Below are positions 1 through 21,770 of a DNA stretch of 64,000 nucleotides, piece after piece. Location: NCBI RefSeq assembly GCF_000744655.1, contig NZ_JQMJ01000004.1:3100001-3164000 (forward strand), read 5' to 3'. A program made the position numbers and the translations under genes. Origin of the DNA: Streptacidiphilus rugosus AM-16 (GTDB taxonomy: Bacteria > Actinomycetota > Actinomycetes > Streptomycetales > Streptomycetaceae). Under the pieces are notes generated by a model. It saw nothing but the letters and a program-made list of their open reading frames with translations. It was not told the DNA's origin and ran no database searches. The stretch's first letter is position 1. Each line of letters starts with the position of its first letter.

Positions 1-3894
<3,894 letters not shown>

Positions 3895-20766: not shown

Positions 20767-20992
20767 GCCGAGCTCTGGTATTGGGTCCAGGATTCACTCC
20801 CCGGAACCAAGCCGTCACCATAAGTGTGCAAATCCGGACAAACCGGAGGTGCGGCCACCGCCTGACGAAAGCTCACAGCGAGCGCGTCGAGGGCGGCGTT
20901 CCCGCCCTCCGACCACTCCAAACCCAGTGGGTGATTTATCCCCCGATCAGGTGATCCAACCCCCACTGTCCCAGAAGTCCCGTCGAGGGGAG
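20767..20992. other. gap between the whiB and cysteine dioxygenase control regions
   Basis: The divergent intergenic region runs from the whiB start to the leader ORF (20657-21028). Apart from the two promoter regions described separately, I see no convincing gene or stable structure. Its base composition is slightly lower in GC than the flanking genes. Confidence 0.5.
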
Positions 20993-21022
20993 TTGACAAG
21001 GGCGCTCTTGACAATGTCTGCT
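20993..21022 (+). promoter_or_regulatory. candidate promoter for the cysteine leader ORF
   Basis: A perfect TTGACA at 20993-20998 is followed after 18 bp by TCTGCT (21017-21022), then 6 nt and the leader ATG at 21029. This would make the leader mRNA leaderless, as at several other genes here. The -10 is weak. A second TTGACA at 21008-21013 leaves no room for a -10 before the ATG. Confidence 0.35.
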
Positions 21023-21028
21023 AGCTCC

Positions 21029-21115
21029 ATGTCTTCGCACCGCCCCACGTCGAGCAGCCTCCATGGCTCGCTTCGTCGTGCCGCGAGTGCGCTGTGTTGT
21101 TGTCGCTGTAGCTAG
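21029..21115 (+). CDS. cysteine-rich leader peptide (uORF), 28 aa
   Basis: A 28-codon ORF ending ALCCCRCS-stop, 49 nt before the cysteine dioxygenase start. All four Cys codons are TGT, the rarer cysteine codon in high-GC actinobacteria. R17, S20, A21 and C23 line up with the second leader at 55472. In mycobacteria, polycysteine uORFs mediate cysteine-responsive attenuation of downstream genes. The same logic is inferred here. An alternative in-frame ATG at 21014 would give 33 aa. Confidence 0.7.
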   Translation: MSSHRPTSSSLHGSLRRAASALCCCRCS

Positions 21116-21164
21116 GGCCCCATCTCCCCCCTGTCTGCTCACAGCCCACAAGGACGACACAGCC

Positions 21165-21770
21165 GTGACCTCCGGTTCCCTGCCTTTCGCCGTACCCGCA
21201 CCCACCGCTTCCGCATCCGTCTCCCGCTACCCCGACGGCCTCAGCGACGTCAGCATCGCCGGCGACCCGCTCGCCTGGCCCCACCTGGCGCCCGCCCCGC
21301 TCGCGCACCCGACGACCGTCGGCGACTTCGCCGCGCTCGCCCGCCGCGTCGCCGCGGACCGCGCCCGCTGGGAGCCGCTGGTCAGGTACGACGCCCTCAC
21401 CCGCTGGTACGCGCGGCTGGAGACCGGGCCCGGCTACGAGGTCTGGCTGCTGAGCTGGCTGCCCGGCCAGGGCAGCGGCGCGCACGACCACGGACGGTCC
21501 TCCGCCGTGATGACGGTCCTCCAGGGCGAGCTGACCGAACGTTCGCCGGACCGCGATCCGCGCACCCTCGCGACGGGCACGCAGCGGGTCATCGCACCGG
21601 GGTACGTCCACGAGGTCGTCAACGACTCACTGGAGCCCGCGGTCACGGTGCACGTGTACTTCCCCGGACTGACGGAGATGACCCCGTACCCGAAGCCGAG
21701 CCTGCACCGGCCGACTGTCGCGGGACAGGGTGCGCTGCACGCCCGGCCCGCCGACCTGTCGCACCGCTGA
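21165..21770 (+). CDS. cysteine dioxygenase family protein
   Basis: Oxidises cysteine to cysteine sulfinate with a mononuclear iron. The cupin ligands are visible as H107 and H109 (SGAHDHGRSS) and H149 (APGYVHEVVN), followed by VTVHVYFPGLTEM, the second cupin motif. The protein is 201 aa from a GTG at 21165 with AAGGACGA upstream. Longer in-frame starts run back into the leader ORF and are rejected. It sits beside whiB as in S. coelicolor. A polycysteine leader upstream fits a cysteine-degrading enzyme whose expression tracks cysteine. Its 3' end overlaps the convergent mannosyltransferase gene by 128 bp. Confidence 0.9.
   Translation: MTSGSLPFAVPAPTASASVSRYPDGLSDVSIAGDPLAWPHLAPAPLAHPTTVGDFAALARRVAADRARWEPLVRYDALTRWYARLETGPGYEVWLLSWLPGQGSGAHDHGRSSAVMTVLQGELTERSPDRDPRTLATGTQRVIAPGYVHEVVNDSLEPAVTVHVYFPGLTEMTPYPKPSLHRPTVAGQGALHARPADLSHR

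Follow-up and report, generated by a model that had tools for sequence, protein, structure and literature searches.

A conserved cysteine-rich leader upstream of cysteine dioxygenase genes in Streptomycetaceae: a candidate attenuator on a catabolic gene

Introduction

Leader peptides may precede catabolic genes, as illustrated by tnaC of tryptophanase, which senses free tryptophan via a conserved nascent peptide. For cysteine, leaderless polycysteine uORFs acting as attenuators in mycobacteria are said to have been described by Canestrari et al. in 2020. According to the available excerpt of PMC4633059, Cys-rich uORFs lie at the cysA2/Msmeg_5788, Rv0485/Msmeg_0932 and nirA/Msmeg_4527 loci of mycobacteria, and the control exerted by polycysteine uORFs is described at second hand in passages of PMC13236596, PMC9094748 and PMC9031893. 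Cys leader peptides have also been predicted before the cys operons of Mycobacterium and P. acnes and before cbs of B. longum (PMC1262725, in excerpt). In S. lividans, the accessible part of PMC8079986 reports eight leader peptides, mostly leaderless amino-acid leaders, including a metNIQ leader that ends CMCRRMCAF and holds three Cys. The polycysteine leaders named in these excerpts precede sulfur-assimilation or regulatory loci, and an open-paper literature search did not turn up a Cys leader in front of a cysteine dioxygenase (CDO) gene.

Here, we analyse such an arrangement in Streptacidiphilus rugosus AM-16. The window is the whole stretch of DNA that was analysed, 64,000 nucleotides in length.

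Results

The leader ORF and its target gene

The features of the locus are collected in Table 1. Direct reading confirmed the preliminary description of this DNA, which had pointed to a 28-codon ORF ending ALCCCRCS-stop, with four Cys in five codons, all TGT, and 49 nt between its stop and the CDO GTG codon. The downstream protein matches PF05995 (Pfam, E 1.4e-17), and its nearest solved chains, 8qfr (E 4.2e-9) and 2ic1 (E 1.4e-7), are named cysteine dioxygenase; by these matches, the target of the leader is a gene of cysteine/sulfur metabolism. The alignment places YAR of the window protein where 8qfr has YAS. We take this arginine to be at the substrate-binding Arg60 position of mammalian CDO, which suggests that cysteine itself is the substrate. 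CDO consumes cysteine, so the downstream gene is not a cysteine-supply gene. A divergent WhiB-family gene (PF02467) lies on the other side of the leader ORF.

The leader peptide had no match in Pfam and none in NCBIfam, the latter being a weak negative as the CDO and WhiB proteins also matched nothing there. A plasmid search using the leader as query gave no match. At the gathering threshold, rRNA genes were the sole Rfam matches in the window, where the 16S gene and part of the 23S gene occupy positions 1-3893 of the minus strand.

Table 1. Coordinates of the leader, its promoter and the CDO gene in the window
Feature	Position	Strand	Basis or remark
-35 TTGACA of leader promoter	20993..20998	+	TTGAC position kept across family loci
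Second TTGACA, 15 nt downstream of the first	21008..21013	+	Read directly; doubling common to L003-L008
-10-like TCTGCT, 6 nt upstream of ATG	21017..21022	+	Not TANNNT
Leader uORF, MSSHRPTSSSLHGSLRRAASALCCCRCS then stop, probably leaderless	21029..21115	+	28 codons, ATG 21029, TAG 21113-21115
Cys run TGT TGT TGT CGC TGT (codons 23-27), proposed sensor	21095..21109	+	Read directly; Cys-codon counts in 146 leaders
Helix 5' strand GCUGUGUUGU, overlaps first Cys codons	21091..21100	+	Computed pairing with 21154-21163
Helix 3' strand ACGACACAGC, between Shine-Dalgarno and CDO start	21154..21163	+	Computed pairing with 21091-21100
Shine-Dalgarno AAGGA of CDO	21150..21154	+	Shine-Dalgarno rule
Cysteine dioxygenase (CDO), 201 aa, GTG start at 21165	21165..21770	+	PF05995

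Promoter geometry and start of the leader

A TTGAC motif starts 37 (93 loci), 36 (52 loci) or 35 nt (one locus) upstream of the leader start in 146 of 150 family CDO loci. Spacings of 33-38 nt were allowed, and a looser rule, with TTGAC allowed at any place in the 40 nt upstream, picked out the same 146 loci. Among the 93 loci with a spacing of 37, the -10 hexamer has T1 in 88, T6 in 93 and A2 in just 4; the commonest hexamers are TCTCCT (43), TGTCCT (11) and TCTGCT (11). TCTGCT is found in 8 of the 52 loci with a spacing of 36, a register that is less uniform. A plain sigma-70 consensus scan of the window leader, which requires A at -10 position 2, returned no promoter. With a -10 that lacks the usual A2, the leader promoter may depend on an activator or on a different sigma factor.

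In S. lividans, the -10 box lies 4-9 nt (mean 6.3) upstream of the start site, according to the excerpt of PMC8079986. By this spacing rule, the first TTGACA and the TCTGCT of the window predict a transcript that starts at ATG 21029 and would be leaderless. An in-frame ATG at 21014 was set aside as leader start: it sits between the promoter hexamers, inside the promoter, which makes 21029 the likelier start.

Conservation of the leader across Streptomycetaceae

CDO was present in 150/150 genomes of the family. The comparison used 150 loci drawn from 149 family genomes, as G040 had no listed place and one genome contributed two copies; excluded from the 150 were L002, L016 (the second fragment of a broken CDO gene) and L017-L030 (second CDO genes and fragments). 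A locus passed the leader test when TTGAC lay at the required distance and the last 14 residues, stop position included, held three Cys or more. The test was passed by 146 of the 150 loci, and a leader was found in 80 of 80 named CDO loci, or in 53 of 53 once those identical to earlier loci are set apart. Applied to three control regions (the opposite strand upstream and both strands downstream), the same test gave 0/150, 0/150 and 0/150. When both strands of the 64 kb were scanned for -35-like geometry with a terminal Cys cluster, the leader ORF was the sole match. A chance ORF is ruled out by these three results. The loci that failed the test comprise L034, with just 6 bases of upstream sequence, L158, whose leader has two Cys (ALCCPRTRRP), and L144 and L156 (a second copy), where no leader was found upstream of CDO.

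The 146 leaders start with ATG (144) or GTG (2) and are 25 to 51 residues long. Their C-termini diverge (CCCRCS, SCCRLCSCCI, CCCPCRCR, CSCCCCSSC), the Cys cluster near the stop being kept and the peptide not. The gaps between leader and CDO range from 49 to 302 nt (median 120); no gap being under 49 nt in the 146 loci, a stalled ribosome and an initiating one could be accommodated at once. Locus groups were made by peptide motif rather than by tree, and the Kitasatospora type includes records named Streptomyces. The family comparison that the preliminary description had proposed thus bore out a Cys cluster that is kept while peptide and spacer vary, but in Kitasatospora-type loci the sequence surrounding the leader stop hardly varies either. 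It also bore out retention of the ORF in relatives.

The Cys leader upstream of CDO is real and highly conserved; it is very probably a regulatory element, and probably a ribosome-read cysteine sensor. The earlier proposal of a cysteine-sensing leader ahead of CDO is backed by the family comparison, stalling itself being the part that we infer.

Codon choice at the Cys run

Cys codons of the 146 leaders are TGT in 533 cases and TGC in 199 (73% TGT); the other two-fold NNY codons of the same leaders end in C 571 times and in T 36 times (6% T). Over roughly the first 160 matched codons, the CDO genes contain 52 TGC and 0 TGT, and 38 gene-like window ORFs, chosen for high GC3, contain 111 TGC and 13 TGT. 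TGT exceeds TGC in every group, the excess being smallest in the AEHH group (70:58) and largest in the Kitasatospora type (147:26). The leaders favour the rare Cys codon, as would befit a leader that reads tRNA-Cys charging. The anti-RBS pairing of the window likewise needs TGT.

Pairing of the Cys codons with the CDO ribosome-binding site

In the window, the two helix strands of Table 1 pair over 10 bp, which would bring the first Cys codons against the spacer between the Shine-Dalgarno sequence and the start of CDO. The fold of the window leader RNA has a z of -4.44, and 0/200 dinucleotide shuffles were as stable. The computed cost of opening the CDO RBS falls from 14.5 kcal/mol in free RNA to 8.8 once a ribosome footprint covers the first Cys codon. 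This anatomy disfavours, rather than excludes, the view of the preliminary description that full leader translation favours expression; the computed effect is reversed in 20 of 146 loci. A footprint over the stop codon opens the window CDO site as well as one over the Cys run, so the model requires a Cys-replete ribosome to pass quickly.

We extended the calculation to the family, CDO start codons being picked by a Shine-Dalgarno rule. With the footprint on the first Cys, the cost drops by more than 1 kcal/mol in 60 of the 146 loci and rises by more than 1 in 20; the corresponding numbers are 9 and 3 in the window's genus (n=14), and 12 and 10 in the Kitasatospora type (n=38), where the mean stall effect is near zero. 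A sliding footprint gave genus means of -4.1 to -4.7 where it lay over the Cys run and stop codon, and of about 0 to -2.6 at other positions. For AEHH, a Streptomyces group (n=20), the corresponding value was about -6, and a lesser dip appeared around +36 to +42.

Each uORF was then joined in silico to the gap and RBS of another group, and the change in opening cost was compared with that for its own. Own combinations outdid foreign ones in the window's genus (-4.54 against +0.43, p 0.003), in AEHH (-5.97 against -0.69, p 3e-6) and over all 146 loci (-1.96 against -0.57, p 5e-6), p values that are too strong, here and in the duplex tests below, since the sequences are related and not independent. 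The effect was weak in the MPAT group (p 0.04), and no significant effect was obtained for MLAN, MSVTH and the group 'other'. With the footprint of this test, 54/146 loci dropped beyond 2, against 18% of swaps. The match is lineage-specific even within the genus. Over all uORF-gap combinations, subclade A (seven loci, the window included) gave -5.68 with A gaps, +0.39 with B and -0.70 with C; subclade C (four loci) gave -5.47 with C gaps, -0.93 with A and -0.45 with B; subclade B (three loci) had no effect with its own gaps (+1.27). The stall-opening effect is absent in L004 and L011. Complementarity is perfect at L014 between the Cys run GUCCUUGCUG and CAGCAAGGAC, a stretch that includes the Shine-Dalgarno.

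A broad duplex test gave -14.9 for the own RBS, -13.7 for the RBS of other groups and -14.8 for shuffled RBS, no better than shuffles. In a narrow duplex test over all loci, p was 3e-6 against other groups' RBS and 0.055 against shuffled RBS. By the narrow test, the Cys run of the Kitasatospora type fits its own RBS better than those of other groups (p 3e-5), not better than shuffles (p 0.15), and pairing in the MLAN group is worse than in its own shuffles. RNAalifold on the group alignments returned no one fold common to all groups. A universal RBS-pairing rule was rejected on the broad duplex result, the null groups and the reversed loci. Because the Cys codons pair with the CDO RBS region, a stalled ribosome should open the CDO site in most of the genus; the sign is less certain outside it, because the Kitasatospora type and other groups are null or reversed and 20 of the 146 loci rise.

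Leaders at other loci

In the window's genus, 14 of 14 loci of the second CDO have a short upstream ORF placed by the same TTGAC rule; the search did not require Cys, and every ORF has 1 to 5. Seven of the peptides are of MGI/MRI type and seven have an HLDLVRY-GALC-like core (VDL/LDL type). In the genome of the window, the second CDO (L002, G000:C4:5949555-5950025; genus counterparts L017-L029) has the leader peptide MGIISMRSVRSTRLDVVRCPRLFCSPG, and a rhodanese match lies directly downstream of this gene. A scan of the flanks of PF01507, PF00581 and PF01053 hits in the same genome found a single leader: at L218 (position 2104, minus strand), the VDL-type peptide VDMKRQAELTKRRAVDLCRVAACLCRMR precedes a rhodanese-family gene. 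The VDL-type leader peptides of Streptomyces have an RRxVDLxRxxxALC-like core; the window peptide lacks this core and has LHGSLRRAASALCC.

Across the class, 70 of 197 sampled genomes had CDO at the cut-off, 54 of them outside the family, and 40 of these 54 loci were examined. In one genus, 4 of 7 loci have a minimal MRCCC leader, ATGCGCTGCTGTTGCTGA, upstream of CDO together with a plausible promoter; this leader is perhaps of independent origin. These five-residue leaders are at L196, L199, L200 and L201, in a genus of another family. The leader MTGLLLVVRATSGAGGRCCRCC precedes CDO at L204, also outside the family. Nothing convincing was found at the other 35 of the 40 loci, where L178, L188 and L211 have Cys-rich frames without the geometry.

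Downstream of CDO, the Kitasatospora-type loci (for example L036 and L037) have a same-strand reading frame 20-82 nt after the gene in 12 of 12 listed of the 38; the three frames whose starts were read begin MRI(V/T). We take this frame to be cofD-like.

Discussion

We propose that the leader acts as a cysteine-responsive translational attenuator. The mRNA would start at or beside AUG 21029, and a ribosome would load without a Shine-Dalgarno sequence and translate as far as the UGU cluster. In naked RNA, the 5' helix strand would pair with the spacer before CDO and shut the CDO site. Under a shortage of charged tRNA-Cys, the ribosome would halt on the UGU codons and mask that strand, so that the CDO site would open and CDO would be made; with ample cysteine, it would pass and depart, and the site would shut again. 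Control would be exerted at translation rather than transcription. To this full model, in which stalling turns CDO on, we assign a rough probability of 0.53. Computation has shown the conservation, the codon bias, and the pairing with its lineage-specific match; the leaderless start, the stalling, the sign and the level of control are what we infer. Stalling that turns the gene on is also what the available part of PMC13236596 describes for mycobacterial sulfur genes. A point against this sign is that turning on a cysteine-degrading enzyme during cysteine shortage looks perverse.

The same sensor could work with the opposite sign, stalling at low cysteine keeping CDO off and a ribosome that reaches the stop turning it on, for example by melting a GC-rich hairpin after the stop. 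This would make physiological sense for a catabolic gene, and several loci are compatible with it: L011 has the post-stop hairpin GGGCCTGAGTCCAGGCCC, 34 of 38 Kitasatospora-type loci have a conserved GC-rich element, GTCCCACCGCGCGCC, after the stop, and this type combines its mean stall effect near zero with 10 of 38 loci rising. In feather medium, the two cdo genes of Streptomyces SCUT-3, cdo1 and cdo2, are up 50.2-fold and 8.3-fold (PMC7181669, in excerpt), a rise that may favour this sign if it concerns a gene with the leader; the medium is rich in bound cysteine. Against it, the window and L003-L008 fold without a strong hairpin right after the stop, the Cys run pairing with the RBS instead, and no terminator-like site was found downstream of the window leader. 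We regard the opposite sign as unlikely.

Control at transcription, the leader governing premature termination (Rho-dependent or by a hairpin) between promoter and CDO, appears improbable. It draws on the long gaps of many relatives (49-302 nt, median 120), on the suggestion of Rho for mycobacterial cys leaders in the excerpt of PMC1262725, and on 2 terminator-like sites in a 651-base stretch against 0.3 in shuffles. One of them is at 20913-20930; the other, at 21077-21091 within the uORF, would use the TGT run for its T-rich tail and is weak, its stem having 5 pairs, 3 of them G-C. A hairpin inside the uORF, upstream of the Cys run, also covaries in Streptomyces proper (GACUCGC/GCGAGUC, GACCCGU/ACGGGUC, CACCCAC/GUGGGUU and others, for example in L032, L035 and L117). 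In 71 of 94 Streptomyces-proper loci anchored by peptide (52 distinct), its paired cells reach 0.90 against a shuffle maximum of 0.857, and both-side cells number 38 against a shuffle mean of 12.1 and maximum of 22. As a general part of the leader this hairpin was rejected, the best one in the window's genus being no better than codon shuffles. In the window, the gap is only 49 nt, no intrinsic terminator was found between leader stop and CDO, and the GC hairpin and U-tract of a classical trp-type attenuator are absent there; control at the RBS accounts for a pairing that is matched by lineage. It is very improbable that the leader ORF codes for a small protein with a separate function, such as metal or thiol binding, or is untranslated. 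The very high conservation of a Cys-rich product is in keeping with a protein function, but length (25 to 51 residues), sequence and Cys spacing differ between groups, the peptide does not explain the UGU bias, and it had no Pfam match, the NCBIfam negative being weak.

The predicted sign of the translational attenuator raises the question of the role of CDO in Streptomycetaceae. Tentatively, CDO may be switched on by a shortage of charged tRNA-Cys as part of a sulfur-acquisition programme, the UGU codons being at once sensor and RBS-closing strand, a proposal that we hold to be rather doubtful. If true, CDO would not be an overflow valve; for example, it could serve to make sulfite that splits the disulfides of keratin-like material. 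Cys leaders precede a cysteine-destroying enzyme at nearly every Streptomycetaceae locus examined, which would extend ribosome-read cysteine control to catabolism, and Cys-containing leaders also precede the CDO paralogue in the window's genus. The family loci provide a large natural alignment in which codons and anti-RBS pairing appear to be fitted into the same bases.

Like tnaC, the leader precedes a catabolic gene; unlike that of tnaC, its peptide is not conserved. The rare UGU codons and the variable peptide make tRNA charging the likelier signal, in contrast to tnaC. The leaders predicted in PMC1262725 likewise have Cys codons near the stop and no conserved terminator, but the excerpt reports no such leader upstream of CDO, nor any cysteine leader in Streptomyces. 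The S. lividans leaders differ in that the accessible part of PMC8079986 assigns none to cysteine (metL being assigned to methionine) and places none before CDO. The closest likeness is to the mycobacterial attenuators, which, as far as the available excerpts go, also have a short ORF with Cys codons clustered at its 3' end, leaderless geometry and a position upstream of a cysteine-related gene. There, as in the model for the window, leader RNA masks the RBS and a stalled ribosome frees it; in silico, masking and freeing were obtained with the window, with most loci of its genus and with one Streptomyces group, and not with the others. The window differs in its target, a cysteine-consuming dioxygenase in a different order of bacteria, and in that the Cys codons themselves would form the anti-RBS strand. 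We read the CDO leader as a probable variant, on a catabolic gene, of the mycobacterial-type polycysteine-uORF attenuator.
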